Assembly: GCA_903813345.2 (NCBI GenBank) | Contig: CAIIXF020000001.1 | Location: 1,796,001-1,860,000 of the forward strand | Direction: 5' to 3' | Length of the DNA: 64,000 nucleotides | From: Owenia fusiformis | Taxonomy: Eukaryota; Annelida; Polychaeta; Sabellida; Oweniidae | In this document: piece by piece, positions 1,548 to 39,932 of the stretch | How the letters are laid out: each line of letters starts with the position of its first letter | Numbering within the stretch: the stretch's first letter is position 1 | Program-made: the position numbers and the translations under genes | Notes under the pieces: generated by a model | Seen by the model: the letters and a program-made list of their open reading frames with translations, nothing else | What the model was told of the DNA's origin: nothing | Databases searched by the model: none

Positions 1548-4500
1548 TTATTGGATGCATTTCGTGTTTTTTTCTCTCTCGATAAAAATATTAGATATAT
1601 ATTTTGCTAGTATATTTAATATTATTCCCTCTGAATTAAATAGAAAAATTAATTTATGTTCCACGTTATTCATGTTTTCTAAATTTTGACAGTGTTTTTT
1701 TATTTTATCCATGTAACTTGACCGAACATCTTTTAACTTATTGCATTCTAATAGGTAATGACATTCTGAACCGGTTTTCTTGTTACACATTAAACATTTT
1801 CTTTCTTCAATAGGGGTAATTGGTTTTGTGTAACGACCTGTTTCGATTTCTAATTTATGTGCGCTAATTCTTAGCTTTGTCAAGTTATTTCTGTCTATTT
1901 CATTTTTGATTAAATCCAAGTAGGGTTCCTTGTTCCATTTTGCTTTTATTATCTTATAAAACCTCAATTTACCATTATTTGATTTTATTTTAGTTTCCCA
2001 AAATTGTATGTATCTATTTTCCAGTAATTTCTTAATTTCTCTTGGTTTTAAGTTTAAATAGTTTGGTGAAGTACCATTGTAAATATATTTAAGTACATCA
2101 TTGATGTGCGTGAGCCATGATTGTTTATTCATATCTGTCAGTTGTTTATTTACCTCAAGGGCTTCACGTAGAAGCGAGTCGGTTCCTTTATTGTTAATAT
2201 GATTAAGATATTTCATTTGTTGATAAAACAAAGAAATAAATAGTGGAAACCTACCTAAATCGCCTCGTGTAGCGTCATTACTGGCCTTTCTGTTAACACC
2301 GAGTATCGATTTCATAAATGATATATGAAGAGATTCAAATGTTATTCCATCATATCCCTTTTCTAATGCCCATTGTGGGTCTTTTTTAATTTTACTCGAG
2401 TTTAAGATACCCGTACCCCATATATCAGATCCATAGAGGCATATGGGCTTTATGAGTTGATCAAATAGTTTTAAGCATAATGATGGTTTCATATTACCAT
2501 TAGAAATTAGACTTAATAATTTAAATTTTGCCTTTTCAGCTTTGTCTTTGATATGCTGGGCTGCAGGTCTCATTGACCCACTTATGCTTAATTCCATTCC
2601 CAGGTAAATGTATCGTGAAACAGATTCTATTTTGTAATTTCCTATAAAGAAGTGATTATCAATAAGTCTACCATTTTTATTCATTACCATAATTTTGGTT
2701 TTATCAGTGTTGATATTTAAGTGCCATTCTTCACAGTATTTTTCTAATTTGTCCAATTTGGTTTGCATTTCATCTTTTGAGGATGCGATAATTACTAAGT
2801 CATCAGCAAAAAGGAGGCTTCCAATTCGCTTATTATTTAATAATGGGTCTGTTTTGAGATCTAATGTTTTAATAATGTCATTTATATATATATTAAATAG
2901 AAGAGGACTTAGGGGGTCCCCCTGTTTTATTCCCTTGTTACAGTCAAATTCATTGGTAAATAAACCCTCATTATCTAGTCTGACTCTTGCTTTTGAATGT
3001 GAATATATATGTTTTATCATTTTATAGAATAAACCGTTTACACCCGATTGCAAAAGTTTCAAAAATAATCCATCATGCCATACCGTATCGAAAGCTTTCC
3101 TCAAATCAACAAAACACATATATATATTCCCTTTTTCACTTAGTACGTATTTATCCACGAGGGTTCGTATTATGAACATGTGGTCAGTTGTTCGTGCTTT
3201 CTTTGTGAAACCGGCTTGATTTTCCGATATTATTTTTCTGTCATGTACAAAGGCGTAAAGTCTATTATACAAAATTATTGAAAATAATTTGCCAAAGCAA
3301 TCAGAAATAAAAATACCTCTGTAATTTCCAGGGTCTTTCGTCGTTCCTTTCTTAAATAACGTAACGATTGATGAAATATTCCATTTCTCAGGGAAAACTG
3401 TTTTGCTCAGTAATATGTTAAACATTTTACAGATAACATTATTTAAAACTGAGTATGACGCTTTAATCATTTCATAGCAAATGCCGTTAAAACCCGAACT
3501 CTTGTTGTTCTTTAATTGCTTAACTGCCTTGTTAACCTCGTTTTCTGTTATTCTGAAGCTAAGTTCGTCAAAATGATTGTCGTTTTCTATTGATTTAACA
3601 ATTTCGTTGACTTTTTTGTTGTTTTCGGTATTTTTATCCTTTTCAAATAATTTGGAAAAATGTTCATGCCATTTCTCTGGTGTTATATACGCGGACTTAT
3701 TGTTTCCGTCTTTTTGCCTTAGTTGCTCAAGTAGGGACCAATATTCTTTAGGGTCATTGTCATAAAGTTCTTCTAATTTATTTATCATATTAGTTTTAAA
3801 TTTCCTCTGTTTTATCTTACAGCATTTCCTATATTCCTTTAGCAACTTGAAGTAATTACCTCTAATCATATTATCATTTGGTGATTTTATTAGTTTTGCT
3901 CCAATTGACTTAACCTTTCTTTTCAGTATACTGCAATCATTATCAAACCATTTTTGAGATATCGAGCCCCCTTTCTTTTTACAGGGTAACTTTTTTCGTA
4001 GTGTTCTTTTTGCTGTGTTAATTATAATTTTTTCGAGCTTGTCAATACAATCATCAATATTATAGGTGTCGTTTAGCTCGTAATTGAGTTCATTTACATC
4101 ATTTCGTGTTTTGAAATTATTGGAGAGGTCCGTTTTAAATAGTACCTCGCGACGGGCGTCCCATTTATATTTGATTGGTTTCATTTTGATAGTATGCCCA
4201 TTGTTTTTAGTCCGATTGTTACCGTGGTCGTTTGGTATTCGTACTTGCATTAATAGAGAAATCTTGCAATGATCAGAGAGCACACAAAGGTTATCATGAA
4301 CCTTGAAGTACATAATATCTGGAAGCATATTTTCATGAATAATACAATAGTCAACTACACTGCTTCCATTCCATTTATGACAGGTGAATCTACCGGGCGA
4401 GTCCCCAAGTACTCTGCCATTTATAATTCGTAAATTAGATGACCTGCATAGGTCTAGTAGCTTCTTACCCGAAGCATCAACAACTGAATCCATGCTGGAA

Positions 4501-5111
4501 CGTTCATTGATGGTGACATCATTGGGACAAAGTAGAATGTTTGGGATATGATCATCATAACCGTGATTATTTTCAAAATCGCGTACTTCACCTGTTCTTG
4601 AATTAAGATCTCCCATAATCATAACATCACCTATATTAGAATATTTATTTATTTCTTTTGTCAAAATCTCGTATGGGTCATCCCCTGAGTTGAATTTACC
4701 TTTTGGGTTATAGTTTGCAGGTGAAAAATACGTTATACATAAGTACATGTCATTACTTGTATTAAAGAACTTTTTTGAAAGTTTAACCCACAGGATATCT
4801 GGTGTCTTCGTTTTGATTATTGTCGTTCCTGCTATATATGTATTTCTTATAAGTACAGCTAATCCGCCATGACGTTTCCTGCCAGATTTAGCTCTATTTA
4901 CCGAAAATGATGTGAAGCCCTTAACTCTATCAAAACATATCGGGTCTTTTTCATCACCATGTGTTTCGGTTAGACAGACTATATCATGTGTTATTAATTC
5001 TTTGATAAAATCATTATCGTGCAATTTGTTCCTTACTTTGCTTTCAATTCCCTGAACGTTCCAGCAAGCGATATTTAAATGTGTGGTAATGGTCGTATTT
5101 TTATATATCAT
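1548..5111 (-). CDS. LINE ORF2: APE endonuclease, reverse transcriptase, C-terminal zinc motif
   Basis: 1187 aa, intact. The APE-like endonuclease (about 10-290) shows NVQG with Asn18, TETH with Glu49, GDLNSRTG (Asp168, Asn170), VVDY (Asp254) and LSDH (Asp280, His281), which is the full catalytic set. The reverse transcriptase (about 530-840) shows YRGI, FVDLRKAFD (catalytic Asp669), KQGDPLSPLLFN (729-740) and FADD (768-771, catalytic Asp pair). A C-terminal CX2CX8HX4C motif (Cys1106, Cys1109, His1118, Cys1123) resembles the zinc knuckle of many LINEs. The protein would nick target DNA and copy the element RNA from the nick. No stop or frameshift was seen, so the product could be functional. 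Confidence 0.95.
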   Translation of the reverse strand: MIYKNTTITTHLNIACWNVQGIESKVRNKLHDNDFIKELITHDIVCLTETHGDEKDPICFDRVKGFTSFSVNRAKSGRKRHGGLAVLIRNTYIAGTTIIKTKTPDILWVKLSKKFFNTSNDMYLCITYFSPANYNPKGKFNSGDDPYEILTKEINKYSNIGDVMIMGDLNSRTGEVRDFENNHGYDDHIPNILLCPNDVTINERSSMDSVVDASGKKLLDLCRSSNLRIINGRVLGDSPGRFTCHKWNGSSVVDYCIIHENMLPDIMYFKVHDNLCVLSDHCKISLLMQVRIPNDHGNNRTKNNGHTIKMKPIKYKWDARREVLFKTDLSNNFKTRNDVNELNYELNDTYNIDDCIDKLEKIIINTAKRTLRKKLPCKKKGGSISQKWFDNDCSILKRKVKSIGAKLIKSPNDNMIRGNYFKLLKEYRKCCKIKQRKFKTNMINKLEELYDNDPKEYWSLLEQLRQKDGNNKSAYITPEKWHEHFSKLFEKDKNTENNKKVNEIVKSIENDNHFDELSFRITENEVNKAVKQLKNNKSSGFNGICYEMIKASYSVLNNVICKMFNILLSKTVFPEKWNISSIVTLFKKGTTKDPGNYRGIFISDCFGKLFSIILYNRLYAFVHDRKIISENQAGFTKKARTTDHMFIIRTLVDKYVLSEKGNIYMCFVDLRKAFDTVWHDGLFLKLLQSGVNGLFYKMIKHIYSHSKARVRLDNEGLFTNEFDCNKGIKQGDPLSPLLFNIYINDIIKTLDLKTDPLLNNKRIGSLLFADDLVIIASSKDEMQTKLDKLEKYCEEWHLNINTDKTKIMVMNKNGRLIDNHFFIGNYKIESVSRYIYLGMELSISGSMRPAAQHIKDKAEKAKFKLLSLISNGNMKPSLCLKLFDQLIKPICLYGSDIWGTGILNSSKIKKDPQWALEKGYDGITFESLHISFMKSILGVNRKASNDATRGDLGRFPLFISLFYQQMKYLNHINNKGTDSLLREALEVNKQLTDMNKQSWLTHINDVLKYIYNGTSPNYLNLKPREIKKLLENRYIQFWETKIKSNNGKLRFYKIIKAKWNKEPYLDLIKNEIDRNNLTKLRISAHKLEIETGRYTKPITPIEERKCLMCNKKTGSECHYLLECNKLKDVRSSYMDKIKKHCQNLENMNNVEHKLIFLFNSEGIILNILAKYISNIFIEREKNTKCIQ

Positions 5112-5786: not shown

Positions 5787-7901
5787 CTAGTATCTTTGAT
5801 ACTGTTGCCTATATCTTGGCCGAGATCCATAAAAGTTATTGTTACTGGTCATGTTATTGTTGTTACGATGTGCTGGTTGGGAGAGATTACAGAACTTTCT
5901 AACCGTGCGAAGTATATTCCCGCAGAGCACTCTAGTTCCTTGTTCGTTAATATGTACGTTATCTCTGTAGAGATGGGGTTTCGGTTGGCCATTCAGTCCT
6001 AGATTGTCATTGGGGCAGCATGTGACGTTGTCGTTATCGTGGAATACTACTTCCAATTGGCTAGCTATAGATTTCTGACGGAGGTTCCATTTTGGGTTGT
6101 CTTTTCTCGGTGGTGGTAAGGACACTATAATCTTCGAGTTCGGAGCCTTTGTTTCGTTGAGTTTGACCAGTTCCTCCATCGATTTGATGATCCTTTCATC
6201 TGATTGTACTGATTTGACATCATTACTTAACACCTGGAACACTGTTATGTCTGGTTTTGAAGTTGAACCATTTACGTAATCTTTAGCCTGTTGAATTGTA
6301 TAGGCCTGTTCAACTGACACGTTAAGTCCGCTCATCCTCTTGCCATCCACATGGGACAAAATGCTTGATCCGATTAGTTTAACAGTTGGTTCCTTCTCGC
6401 TATTCTCATCGTTTGTTATTTCTATTAGATTGTTAGATTTCCTGGTTACCACTGTGTAAGGCGTGTCGTCTTTCTTCTCGTGTGCTAATTTTTTGCACTG
6501 GAGTTTGAGTTCAAAATTTTCCTCTTCCTTATCTTCTAAATACTGGTTTTTATTTTTTATTCTTTGTTGTAGCTCTTCCATTTCATTGTTATTTGATCTG
6601 ATAACTGAATCCTGTTTCTCCACCTTCTTCCTCAGTGTGTTAAGATCGTGAAGTTCATCATCTTGTTTGGATATAACTTGCATCTTTGATTGAATCTTTT
6701 CATTTAGTTCTTCGATTTCTCTGTTTTTTGAACTTATAATTGTTTGTTGGTGATCAATTTCACTTTGATACGCCTTAATTTTTCTGGCTTGGTCTGTAAC
6801 AAAATCAGCTTGTTCTTTTCTTATCTTTCTTACTCTGCGTAATTCTGTATCATGCTCGCAAGTCGATTCTTCTCCTGAGCATCGCGTTTCTTTCTGTGAT
6901 ACGTTGTTCACACTCACTTTGTCTATTAGATCGCAAACTGTATTTTCTAATTTTTCCATCTTTCTAGTTATTTTTGACAGTTCTTGCTGAAGGATGCTGG
7001 TCTCACAACTCTTTGTATTATTGGATTCGGTTTCAGACACGTTATCTGTTGAAGTTACTTTTGTTTTTTTGTCGCCATCCTTATTTTTTACAGTTAGAGT
7101 CTCGTTATTTACAATTGGAGTCTCGTTATTTTTTACAGTTGGAGTCTCGTTATTTACAATTGGAGTCTCGTTATTTACAGTTGGAGTCTCGTTATTTACA
7201 GCTGGATTTTCGTTATCGTGATTATTGTGGTTCATGATGTTATTTTCGTGAACGTTGTTATCTTCCAAATCCTCTATCTCGTTCTCGTCCTGTGCATTTT
7301 CATGGTCTGGTTGAGTACATCTTAGTTTTACATTTGTGACCTCGTTGTCGTGATAATCATTGTTTATGGTATCATTTTCTGTGCTTTTTATCTCATGATC
7401 GTTAATATCGGTTGTAGATGTTATGCTCTTTATCTGTGTATTTGACTGATCTTGAGTATTGTCCTTTTTTTCTGTGTTTGATTGCTTGATCTGATAAGTA
7501 GTGCTTTTCAAGATTGGAAACACCTGGGATTTGAATTCAGTGATGTTATTTCCTTGTATTTGAATGGTTCCAGTTGTTAAGAAAACTGTTACTTTATACT
7601 CTGATGCTTCTACACTGATCTTCTTGAGATCCTCACAGATTTCCATTTGTTTGTTGTTATAGTCTTCATAATATAGGTGTAATGTTATTATCCAGTTTAA
7701 CAACCCATCTTGATTCGTTCTGAACACACAGTATGTATCTGAGCTGCAATGTTCATTGAGAGAGTCCAGCGTTGCTAATTTAGATTTAGATCCGGTTGCT
7801 TTCTTTAGTTTACTCGGAACGTGCTTCCTGTAATGACTACCAATGGTTTGAATACGTTTCACAACTTCCTTGTTGGACATAAAGACTTTAAAATCAGACA
7901 T
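5787..7901 (-). CDS. LINE ORF1 protein: coiled coil plus SGNH-esterase-like domain
   Basis: 704 aa. Residues 1-140 form a compact conserved-looking N-terminal domain, with a strand-rich stretch around VTVFLTTGTIQIQG. Residues 150-235 are polar and Asn/Asp-rich. Residues 236-271 are five or six copies of a seven-residue repeat (NNETPTV/NNETPIV, a 21-bp DNA repeat at about 7085-7205). Residues 300-475 are a long charged coiled coil, probably for trimerisation. Residues 505-675 look like an SGNH/GDSL hydrolase: block I GSSILSH (511-517, with Ser in place of the usual Asp of GDS), block III VLSNDV (557-562) and block V DNVHINEQG (647-655) with Asp and His three residues apart. The C-terminus is Asn/Arg-rich and likely binds nucleic acid. 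Esterase-type ORF1 proteins are known from CR1/L2-like LINEs; their role (membrane or RNP association) is unresolved. It starts at the first ATG of the frame. Confidence 0.85.
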   Translation of the reverse strand: MSDFKVFMSNKEVVKRIQTIGSHYRKHVPSKLKKATGSKSKLATLDSLNEHCSSDTYCVFRTNQDGLLNWIITLHLYYEDYNNKQMEICEDLKKISVEASEYKVTVFLTTGTIQIQGNNITEFKSQVFPILKSTTYQIKQSNTEKKDNTQDQSNTQIKSITSTTDINDHEIKSTENDTINNDYHDNEVTNVKLRCTQPDHENAQDENEIEDLEDNNVHENNIMNHNNHDNENPAVNNETPTVNNETPIVNNETPTVKNNETPIVNNETLTVKNKDGDKKTKVTSTDNVSETESNNTKSCETSILQQELSKITRKMEKLENTVCDLIDKVSVNNVSQKETRCSGEESTCEHDTELRRVRKIRKEQADFVTDQARKIKAYQSEIDHQQTIISSKNREIEELNEKIQSKMQVISKQDDELHDLNTLRKKVEKQDSVIRSNNNEMEELQQRIKNKNQYLEDKEEENFELKLQCKKLAHEKKDDTPYTVVTRKSNNLIEITNDENSEKEPTVKLIGSSILSHVDGKRMSGLNVSVEQAYTIQQAKDYVNGSTSKPDITVFQVLSNDVKSVQSDERIIKSMEELVKLNETKAPNSKIIVSLPPPRKDNPKWNLRQKSIASQLEVVFHDNDNVTCCPNDNLGLNGQPKPHLYRDNVHINEQGTRVLCGNILRTVRKFCNLSQPAHRNNNNMTSNNNFYGSRPRYRQQYQRY

Positions 7902-12930: not shown

Positions 12931-13048
12931 TATTTATAGTTCATTTGACCACATAGCCAGAAGTAAATCATTTATCAGAATCAGACAAAACTTATACATT
13001 TTAAATTTTTACAACGATCGAGAGAAATACAAATGTTATTTTAGTTAA

Positions 13049-13649
13049 AGGAACATTCCTTGCCAGACTATTTCTCTCCTGATATGGTAGCTACAATCAT
13101 ATATATACTTTATATATTTAGCAAAACACGGGGAAATGTTTTCATATGGTCAATATTGATCATTTAAAAATGTAGTACTCATTCCCAGTAAGCTGCCATC
13201 TTTTCAGATTTCTTTCAGGAAGTGATGTCATCGACTCTCACCTGTTATAACCTTGTCTATTACAGTATAGGAAAGAATTACAAAATCACTTCTAAACAAG
13301 AAGCCATTATCTTCTGAGTAAAAATATTTTCAGGAGTTGTCAACTTAGAAGTAAAGAAGAGATCATCAAAAGGATTTTAATCATAGACCAAATTGAAAAA
13401 AATATTCAGCTGGTTTAGTAATTCTAATAGCTCCTTACCTAATGTTATATGCAAAGTTGAGAGTTGATGACATCACTTCCTGAGTGAAATTTTAAAAGAT
13501 GGCAGCCTACTGAAATTGAGCACTACATTTTTTAGTGATCAATATTGACCATTTCAAAACATTTTTATGTTTTTTGATAAACTTGCAAAGTATGTATATG
13601 GTTATAGCTACCATATTAAGAGAGAGATGGTCTGGCAAGGAATACCCCT
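13049..13649. mobile_element. 601-bp MITE with TTAA target duplication
   Basis: Inverted arms of about 210 bp (13049-13260 and 13440-13649) start AGGAACATTCCTTGCCAGAC and end GTCTGGCAAGGAATACCCCT. TTAA flanks both sides (13045-13048, 13650-13653). TTAA targets are used by Kolobok and piggyBac superfamilies; the A-GG start fits Kolobok slightly better, but this is an inference. No coding capacity. Confidence 0.8.
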
Positions 13650-13743
13650 TTAAGCTCTTCGACATTTAAAAAGTTACTCGACTTTTTTTGCAAAAAAACT
13701 TCCAAAAAGTAACAGTCGCATGAATTCACATTGTCGTACTTAC

Positions 13744-13870
13744 AAAATGATCCACTGCCTAACTTATACACCATCGAACTTGGTAATATTGTACACGTAA
13801 GTATTAATAACGGTATATTCCCATAGAAAACTGAGCTTGCTTTTCAACATTTCAAGCGAAAATTCTCTAC
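13744..13870 (-). other. Candidate 5' leader exon of COX6C
   Basis: On the minus strand ATTTT is followed by GTAAGTACG (donor at 13743-13742), and promoter-like motifs lie just upstream at 13887-13917. The position suits the non-coding first exon of COX6C; the transcription start is not defined. Confidence 0.35.
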
Positions 13871-13960
13871 GGAGCTTTTGTTTTTCTGACGTAATTCTAA
13901 TAAATCAGTCACGTGACACAGTTCAGTTCATCTTATTTTGAAAGGGTTGTCATCTATTTA
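13870..13960. promoter_or_regulatory. Putative bidirectional promoter (COX6C / orphan plus-strand gene)
   Basis: A perfect palindromic E-box GTCACGTGAC (13908-13917; USF/MiT-type) and a CRE-like TGACGTAA (13887-13894) lie between two divergent transcription units. The COX6C leader donor is about 165 bp to the left and the ATG at 14036 about 120 bp to the right. Assignment as a promoter is inference from motifs and gene layout. Confidence 0.45.
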
Positions 13961-14035
13961 GAATATTTATTTTCATCTTGTCCAGTCCTATATACAACCT
14001 GCCCTTATCTTTTTCGCTCGTAAAACCGCGTAGTA

Positions 14036-14246
14036 ATGTTGAAACTATGGAATAGATTCTCTGAGAGTGGCGATATGTTTTCATGTTTACCATCTTGCAT
14101 TTTACACCACTCATTTTGGATGAGTCCAAGTAAGCCGCACATCCGGGTGATTGGAAAAGGGAAATTCTTAAAAAAATCGAGCGGCAACAAAGATACTTCT
14201 GTTCAAACTGAGTTTATGACGAAACTTATGAAAGAATCAATAAAAG
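14036..14246 (+). CDS. First coding exon of an unrecognised gene, donor hit by a MITE
   Basis: ATG at 14036 opens 70 codons plus one base. The product starts MLKLWNRF, is basic, poor in acidic residues early on, and ends TEFMTKLMKESIK; a mitochondrial-type N-terminus is possible but unproven. A CACGTGAC E-box lies about 120 bp upstream. The exon should end at 14246: with the MITE at 14250-14754 removed, the border reads AAAAG/GTAAGTGG, a perfect donor. With the MITE present the border reads AAAAG/GTACTG, a weak donor, and read-through meets a stop at 14303-14305. No continuing exon in phase 1 was found before TGS1, so the gene may be broken, or may continue in exons I cannot recognise. I do not recognise the family. 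Confidence 0.45.
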
Positions 14247-14249
14247 GTA

Positions 14250-14754
14250 CTGTAGATTGGGTTAATTTGGCGCCCGCTTTAATTTGGCGAATTTGGCGAA
14301 ATTGAAAAATTCGCCAATATAAATCTCCGCCAAAATTTAGAATGAATCCCCGGGAATCATCTAGGGTATTTCGTCCAGTGTATTAAGGTCACTTCCGGTT
14401 TATTTTTTTCCAAAAATATGAAAAAATGTCTCTCATAAATTGGCTCAGAACTGGTCAGTCACTCATTTATACTCAGGGAAAAGTAGCAGCATCGATTGAG
14501 GTGTAAAATGTAAAGGTTGATCTCACAAAAATGTACAAACGTGGTGAATATCGCCAGTGGTCCTCAAAAGAAAAAATGAACATAGCCAAACATGCCCATT
14601 TAGATCTAGATCTACATGGTAATTCGCAAACAGCGCGTTAGTTTAACATTCCATTAACATTTTTTTTGCATATCCGCCAAATTAAATAGCCGCCAATATG
14701 CCAAAAATGGCAAAATCGCCAAATTAAGTAGCGCCAAATTAACCCAATCTACAG
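14250..14754. mobile_element. 505-bp TA-flanked MITE inserted in a splice donor
   Basis: The ends are CTGTAGATTGGGTTAATTTG and its exact complement, with TIR similarity of about 40 bp, including repeated TTTGGCG/CGCCAAA units inside. TA flanks both ends (14248-14249, 14755-14756). It has no coding capacity and is a Tc1/mariner-type non-autonomous element by target and TIR. Confidence 0.88.
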
Positions 14755-14756
14755 TA

Positions 14757-15235
14757 AGTGGTATACATTAGACGGATTCCAAAAATTAAACGTGACGCCA
14801 ATTTGAAAGTTCAGAATGCCTTCTGTGATTCAAAATCACAAAAAAGTCGATTAACTTTTTAAATGTCGAAGAGCTTAGATAACTTCCCTTTTAGCCAATT
14901 TAGCAAGTATTTAGAATGATGCACAATTAATAGATACTACATACATACATTTCGGGTAAATCAAAAATAAAACACACATAAAACTAACCCAGAAAATAAT
15001 GCACGTGAGATTCGACACCACTCGGTTGATAAAAAAACTGATAAAAAGAATTACACAAAATAAGAAACGCGTTGTCATTTTCTAAATCAGGAAAATATCA
15101 ACCTAAATTTATTGAATCGTATAACCCAGCTATATGACAATACTTTACAAGCATCTACGTCTCATTGCTTAACCAATATAAACAGTAAATCATGAAAATT
15201 CTCACCAAAAATATTCCGACCTTCAAAATTCCAAA
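14757..15235. other. Non-coding DNA between the orphan exon and the TGS1 leader
   Basis: Includes the right 38-bp inverted repeat (14840-14877). No convincing plus-strand exon in phase 1 and no other gene signal was seen. Confidence 0.5.
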
Positions 15236-16968: not shown

Positions 16969-25321
<8,353 letters not shown>

Positions 25322-38507: not shown

Positions 38508-39932
38508 TTACCACTTTATCCCTAGGGCATTAGTTTCTTTCTCGATGGCGTGATACTGCGTATGCAGCATCTTGAGAGCTTTATCAGAATTTCTACCCCC
38601 TAGCCACGTAGCATAGAGCTGATCCAACTCATCGCTACCACACTCCAATGTGGCATCATTTTCATCATATACACCCTCCACTTCAGCTAAAAGCTCCTTC
38701 TGGGTAACACCCTCCTCTGGCCTCAACTGTGCCCCACCATTCAGGCACCCAGAGGGACATGCCATAACTTCAACAAAATGGTAGTTACATTTTCCTCGTT
38801 TAACCTTTTGTACTATGTTTTGTATGTTACGGAAGCCGTAAGCAATGGCAAACTTCAGCTCCACTTTGCCATCAATTTCAAGTGTGACTTCTTTGAAGTC
38901 GTTGTTCCGCATTGTTTTATACTTAAGGTCTCCAGTAGTGTGCCCATAGATCTCTTTAGCTGCATGTTTCATAACATGTTCAAGGTACCCTCCGGAACCA
39001 TTATTGGGGTGGTTCATGGCGCTACCCTGTCGACCATATATGGAATCAAGAGGCGCCGGGATGACATCACCCAGTTGTATTCCTTCTCTTTTAAACATTT
39101 CATCCACCTCTAGTGTAGATAACACACAATCCACATCTCTTGTACTGTACAAGTCGTCATAGAAATCCTGACGCGATGCTTCTAGCTTTTTGTCATAACA
39201 AGGCATGACAGTCACATGATACACCTGGTCTGGTTTTCTCCCTCCTCCCAAGTGGTCCTTTGTTAGCGATCCCATTATCTGTTGCGGGGATTTTGTAGAG
39301 CTTATATAAGGCAATATATAAGAGCCATGTGTCTTTTCTGCATAGCACACCCAACCAGGGCAAGCTGATGCTAACATGGGCAGGGCAGTTTTGTCAGTTT
39401 CCTTATCTTGGTACCTCCTTATGAACTCATGTCCACTTTCAACCAGGCTTAAATCCCTAGCTTGGGCTACATCATACACAGCACTGGCACCAAGCTGCTT
39501 GAAAAAACCTGATATTTTCTCTATTGCTTCATTTGCATTTAGCTTATATTTCACTGCAAGTGAGGCTTTAGACTGAGGAGATATCGAAATAACGACATAT
39601 TTGCATTCGTCTGATTTTCCCTGTTCAAGTAAGATTTTGTTCGAGTTCAAAATCTTGTACAACTCTTCTTGGCTTTGTTGCGTGATAAGGACGCTCTCGG
39701 CAGAAGTGATACATCCGCTACAAGCTAAACAGTCATTGAGCGTAATCGTTGCTTTTTCAAGCTTCACCTCCCCGCCATCTATACCAATCTGGCTATATTC
39801 ACCATCATCCCCGATTTTAATGGCAGCTGTTTTACCAGACTTCTTAGTCACTTTAACAGGTTTTATACACTCTTGAGATGGAGTGATGAAATCATCGAGG
39901 TCTGTGAGCTGAAGAGCTCCGCTAAATGCCAT
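38508..39932 (-). CDS. CIAO3: Cytosolic Fe-S cluster assembly factor CIAO3 (NARFL/Nar1)
   Basis: 474 aa in one uninterrupted exon (human about 476 from memory). Iron-only-hydrogenase-like protein of the cytosolic iron-sulfur assembly (CIA) targeting complex; it carries two [4Fe-4S] clusters and works with CIAO1, CIAO2B and MMS19 to load clusters on cytosolic and nuclear proteins. Seen: [14 protein letters not shown] near the start, Cys22 with NDCLACSGC (Cys68, Cys71, Cys74) for the N-terminal cluster, ACPGW (Cys191), [12 protein letters not shown] (Cys245) and [11 protein letters not shown] (Cys392, Cys396) for the C-terminal cluster, and the conserved end GIKW. All cluster ligands are present. 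The neighbouring genes are split by many introns, so an intronless CDS is notable, but it is intact and looks functional. Confidence 0.96.

Follow-up and report, generated by a model that had tools for sequence, protein, structure and literature searches.

The window, the whole stretch of 64,000 nucleotides of Owenia fusiformis DNA that was analysed, carries on its plus strand a TGS1-like gene with acidic N-terminal exons (about 17532-22975), recognised from its open reading frames and from a match to Methyltransf_15 (PF09445) at 22721-22972, in the 3' part covered by the Pfam scan (22646-22975). The name TGS1-like is taken from this domain together with features of the N-terminus. An acceptor at 17531 precedes the first recognised exon, and a motif scan for the first exon of the gene gave nothing convincing. 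Two further features lie on the minus strand: a pair of long uninterrupted frames at 1548-5111 and 5787-7901 that by eye are LINE-like (a 1187-aa reverse-transcriptase-like frame with a 704-aa frame upstream of it), and, at 38508-39932, a single 474-aa frame that Pfam matches to an iron-only hydrogenase-like protein, presumably of the NARF/CIAO3 type.

A nest of three repeats ends some 2.7 kb before the first exon recognised in the TGS1-like gene, which is on the same strand, and may be either intergenic or 5'-intronic relative to that gene. The host element, of about 720 bp when an inserted 505-bp MITE is discounted, lies on the plus strand as a left part that starts with its terminal inverted repeat (TIR; 13651-14249) and a right part that includes the other TIR (14755-14877); the TIRs themselves, 13651-13688 and 14840-14877, are 38 nt long and 97% complementary. 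The host is adjoined directly on its left by a foldback element of 609 bp (13045-13653, unstranded), with TTAA at both ends and 199-nt inverted arms (13045-13243 and 13455-13653) that match at 82%. For the foldback element, 40 of 1186 candidates were scored: the window matches itself at 100%, and identity in the others is 97-99%.

The host element is likewise dispersed: with 14100-14240 as query, a DNA search gave 87 candidates, and the 40 that were scored comprise the window locus (100%) and 39 relatives of 86-92% identity. Nine of 20 relatives align as a single piece of at least 720 bp to 13651-14877 minus the MITE, and the remaining 11 align in pieces or partially. The TIR ends were paired by script in 11 of the 20 copies; the paired ends enclose 670-1739 bp, and in six cases 721-728 bp. 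TA is present at both host borders; a TA target duplication is likely rather than proven, because the pairing pattern itself demanded TA, and the TA may instead be the end of the TIR. The host is a nonautonomous TIR element with at least 40 dispersed copies, and the longest copy opened (L024) has no long transposase frame.

The MITE insertion and its empty site

The third member of the nest is the MITE, which occupies 14250-14754 (unstranded), has the ends CTGTAG...CTACAG and is flanked by a TA target-site copy on the left (14248-14249) and on the right (14755-14756), as is evident from the sequence and from the empty site in relatives of the host. The layout is GG-TA[CTGTAG...CTACAG]TA-AGT, and this presents two donor-like sites on the plus strand: GTACTG at 14247-14252, at the near border (AAAAG/GTACTG), and GTAAGT at 14754-14759, at the far end (CTACAG/TAAGT), where the last G of the MITE is followed by TA and AGT. 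The letters and coordinates given for these features in an earlier note on this DNA, namely the 505-bp length, the TA duplication, the GTACTG border and the distal GTAAGT, are all correct. The TIRs, the TA duplication and a high copy number identify the element as a TA-type MITE: the search of the 498 Mb assembly scored 40 of 997 candidates, and the best relatives are 99% identical. It resembles Tc1/mariner-type MITEs in being short and high-copy, with TIRs, a TA duplication and some near-identical copies, and its TA and its ends would place it in the Tc1/mariner superfamily. The divergence of the host relatives (86-92% identity), set against the 99% of the best MITE relatives, suggests that the host element inserted before the MITE.

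None of the 20 fetched host relatives has a match to the MITE, and the empty site is readable in 18 of them (in L005 there is a deletion at this position, and L021 has diverged). GTAAGT is present in 16 of the 20, AGGTAAGT in 14 and the exact string AAAAGGTAAGTGG in 12; L013 and L017 have point changes at the site. The empty site is thus confirmed as real, being attested by natural relatives as well as by reconstruction. The intact donor-like string that the earlier note had obtained by removing the MITE does exist in nature, the insertion is real, and the geometry described for it, with GTAAGT split and then rebuilt at the far end of the MITE, is correct.

The relative strengths that had been ascribed to the two sites, weak for the proximal and strong for the distal, are not borne out. 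Pairing with the U1 5' end was computed at -11.7 kcal/mol when the window site is intact; the near site gives -6.5 kcal/mol and the far one, which, as ACA/GTAAGT, is without the G at position -1, gives -6.7 kcal/mol. The near and far sites are about equal in their pairing to U1, and both are well under the intact site, so the contrast between them is not shown.

This arrangement very probably arose when the 505-bp MITE entered a TIR element of about 720 bp, from a family carrying AAAAGGTAAGTGG, at the TA within this string, in an order of insertions that we infer from divergence. Any MITE with a CAG end and a TA duplication always leaves ...CAG/TA behind it; where the target TA is followed by AGT, GTAAGT then appears at the far end, and where it is also preceded by G, GTACTG appears at the near end.

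The string itself extends beyond the host family. Twenty orphan TIR loci away from the known copies were sampled from 100 listed of 153 TIR sites, and 18 of these belong to a nonautonomous sister subfamily, some 530 bp long (L030-L034, L036-L044 and L046-L049), which shares the host TIRs and differs in its internal sequence. The other two are a host-type copy (L045) and a TIR only, beside a retrotransposon-like frame (L035). The exact AAAAGGTAAGTGG is also found in 10 recovered sister-subfamily copies, within a common 3' stretch of about 80% identity. Frames of at least 120 aa are present in seven of the 20 loci; Pfam detected no transposase among ten longer frames from six of them. The longest frame, of 698 aa in L035, is outside these ten and appears by eye to be retrotransposon pol-like. 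A sulfotransferase frame was observed in L046.

The presence of AAAAGGTAAGTGG in both subfamilies could reflect an ancestral functional site, for example a splice site of a transposase gene or a motif for recognition of the ends. In its specific form, this would make AAAAG/GTAAGTGG a relic of the transposase-gene donor of a parent transposon, retained in two nonautonomous subfamilies, and the proposed exon a dead transposase exon. That the exact string is common to 12 of 20 host copies and to 10 recovered sister copies with a different interior speaks for such a relic; however, homology between the two subfamilies ends some 12 nt before the site is reached, the upstream frames of the sister copies are full of stops, and neither a transposase nor an autonomous parent of the host element was found in the 20 orphan TIR loci, all of which makes a relic donor unlikely.

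Target sites of the MITE family and the UQCRC1 insertion

Across the genome, there are 750 exact MITE ends with TA, and the TA is followed by AGT in 20 of them (2.7%), compared with 12.1 expected. The empty site reads GTAAGT at nine of these 20 loci, the window included; two of the 20, L058 and L060, have no clean left end. Nine GTAAGT targets among 750 oriented ends compare with 3.1 expected (P of about 0.005, post hoc), the expectation being derived from a background of 160,396 bases of this genome (the window and L024-L049), and raised by the host and sister copies with GTAAGTGG that this background includes. G-preceded ends number 109, compared with 132 expected, which counts against a target preference. 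As the test was chosen post hoc, the excess of GTAAGT targets is suggestive only. Nor is the rebuilt GTAAGT at the end of the MITE special, since the G and T of GTA are always supplied by the element: it always leaves CAG/TA, and any target TA before AGT will, therefore, show GTAAGT at the far end. The nine targets include the host element of the window, a retrotransposon coding stretch (L070, identified by reading) and a simple-repeat stretch; in L071-L076 no more than 40 codons are open ahead of the site, and the only shown gene donor among the nine is that of UQCRC1.

At this last locus, a MITE copy of 488 bp (C5:7383958-7384445; L077 and L069) lies exactly inside the GTAAGT donor of an exon of UQCRC1 or MPP-beta (C5:7384450-7384635). 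The intact donor is GGAG/GTAAGT, with the exon ending ...HYKGPRTVLAAAG/G, and in the presence of the MITE the string becomes GGAG/GTACTG...CTACAG/TAAGTG. In comparisons with solved structures, this exon and two downstream exons match core protein 1 of cytochrome bc1 (best E 1.1e-70) and MPP-beta (4e-56), and Pfam finds Peptidase_M16_C at the locus. The next exon begins after CTCCATTGCAG, and joining it to the original donor gives AAAGGVDHAEL, which aligns with AAAGGVEHRQL; the position of the donor is confirmed by this gapless alignment across the join. Animals are expected to carry both a UQCRC1 and an MPP-beta gene. Two exon searches of the genome each found the C5 locus only; because both genes are expected, the searches may have missed a paralogue, and the exon is likely, rather than proven, to be single-copy. 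The C5 copy of the MITE shares 85-94% identity with the other copies compared, over alignments of unequal length, and is, therefore, not shown to be young.

Three products are predicted for this gene. Use of the near GTACTG donor would give the normal protein, and is the only outcome that would keep it. The far donor would lead to a stop inside the MITE, and nested splicing, in which GTACTG...CTACAG is removed first and the rebuilt GTAAGT is then used, would lose one base and run into an early stop. A functional gene would require use of the near donor; hence, we infer that either the GTACTG donor is used at UQCRC1 or the assembled allele is defective. The allele at C5 may be defective, or heterozygous. 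A broader reading, in which the family has a preference for GTAAGT-like targets and would thereby create tandem split donors with the geometry of [D1,2] stwintrons again and again, the UQCRC1 insertion being tolerated through the GTACTG that the MITE makes, is in our view unlikely.

A further sample of 40 other G-preceded copies was drawn from 100 listed (109 were counted), with the nine GTAAGT targets and second ends excluded. Both ends were recovered in 33 of the 40, and a single one of these has a spanning frame longer than 150 aa, which by eye is LINE-like. No clean gene intron was seen, a minority of the flanks having been compared with protein families. At L094 (C2:29215948-29217158), one of the seven copies whose far end was unrecovered, a MITE end preceded by G is found 15 nt inside the intron that follows a conserved MGAT4 exon; this exon has a Pfam match and ends GATGCT/GTAAGTGG, the donor being our own reading.

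These observations bear on a possible kinship with introners, which the part of PMC9860276 consulted describes as nonautonomous DNA elements that carry a 3' splice site and co-opt a 5' site from the target-site duplication. By analogy, the MITE family would bring a 3' site, CTACAG, and co-opt a 5' site from the target G and TA, so that genic copies would be spliced out or would behave like [D1,2] stwintrons, in which, as defined in the portion of PMC12403724 consulted, an internal GT...AG unit separates nucleotide 1 from nucleotide 2 of the outer donor. G/GTACTG...CTACAG/TAAGT fits that definition, in the window as well as at UQCRC1, where a genuine donor has been hit; the MITE end and the duplicated target can supply splice sites, as in the introners of the PMC9860276 excerpt. 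However, many genic copies in the role of introns are not seen among the MITE copies examined: a spanning frame of over 150 aa occurs in just the one LINE-like case, and the L094 copy sits within an intron. Moreover, splicing from the target G takes one extra base, so that excision is not length-neutral, and at UQCRC1 the predicted product of two-step excision is frameshifted and stopped rather than intact. Stwintrons, for their part, are nested introns of fungi, for which the portions of PMC12403724 and PMC8469720 consulted report no target duplication, whereas the MITE has a TA duplication and, at UQCRC1, would break the frame by the nested route. We consider it very unlikely, on balance, that the family is introner-like. 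A narrow search of open papers, in the parts of them consulted, found no report of a TA-type MITE in a donor with a stwintron layout.

The open frame at 14036-14246

The frame that had been put forward as an exon, 14036-14246 on the plus strand, is a frame of the host element. From the ATG at 14036, it is open to 14302, and the in-frame TGA at 14303-14305, inside the MITE, was seen just as the earlier note describes. At 14102-14104, the window has TTA, where 19 of the 20 relatives have TGA and the remaining one a gap. In a further seven loci, TGA is found in L025, L028 and L029, and L024 has TGG, although its frame shifts later on; in L027 and L045 the disruption comes ahead of this codon, and L026 was unmatched by the script. 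Additionally, several host copies are frameshifted in an A/T run, and the reading frame is, accordingly, not kept in the relatives. Differences from the majority are even over the three codon positions (43, 41 and 36, in 18 copies, with the partial or divergent L015 and L018 left out).

The peptide of 14036-14246 has no match in Pfam. A genome-wide protein search with it returned 135 matched stretches, a minority of which, mostly short, are stop-free; one match of 29 codons, at C9:35850296, is stop-free across codon 14102-14104, and among the 135 only the window copy is free of stops over all 70 codons. The openness of the frame is thus very probably an accident of the window copy. The empty site, whose reconstruction had been counted in favour of the exon, supports the repeat instead, as the same string is carried by the repeat copies.

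A real exon whose donor was split by the MITE, with the MITE partly exonised, would suit the frame open to 14302 and an empty site that resembles a consensus donor, but it is rejected as extremely improbable, given a sequence repeated genome-wide, the TGA and frameshifts in relatives, the lack of a protein family match and of any coding bias.

We hold it very probable, instead, that nonautonomous DNA transposons are nested at this locus, either upstream of the TGS1-like gene or in a 5' intron of it, and that the donor-like motif is a property of a transposon family rather than part of a gene exon. Such a nest would have no consequence for splicing at the window locus, apart from rare cryptic splicing that may occur from 14247 or 14754. 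A transposon that inserts in a splice donor moves this donor away from its intron and supplies another in its place. The window MITE splits and rebuilds a donor-like site in the same manner, but no gene is involved. The mechanism proposed in the earlier note, a MITE in a donor, is sound and was placed at the wrong locus: that a MITE has hit the donor of a real exon is not supported at the window locus and stands for the same MITE family at UQCRC1/MPP-beta.

The window locus carries a warning, in that a perfect donor reconstructed at an empty site can come from a repeat, and relatives need to be checked first. The locus at C5 matters more: there a MITE sits in the donor of a respiratory-chain gene, and the three predicted ways of splicing would each give a different protein. 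This case bears on whether a TA-type MITE can be tolerated by means of a donor of its own making and, hence, on how insertions may become nested introns.
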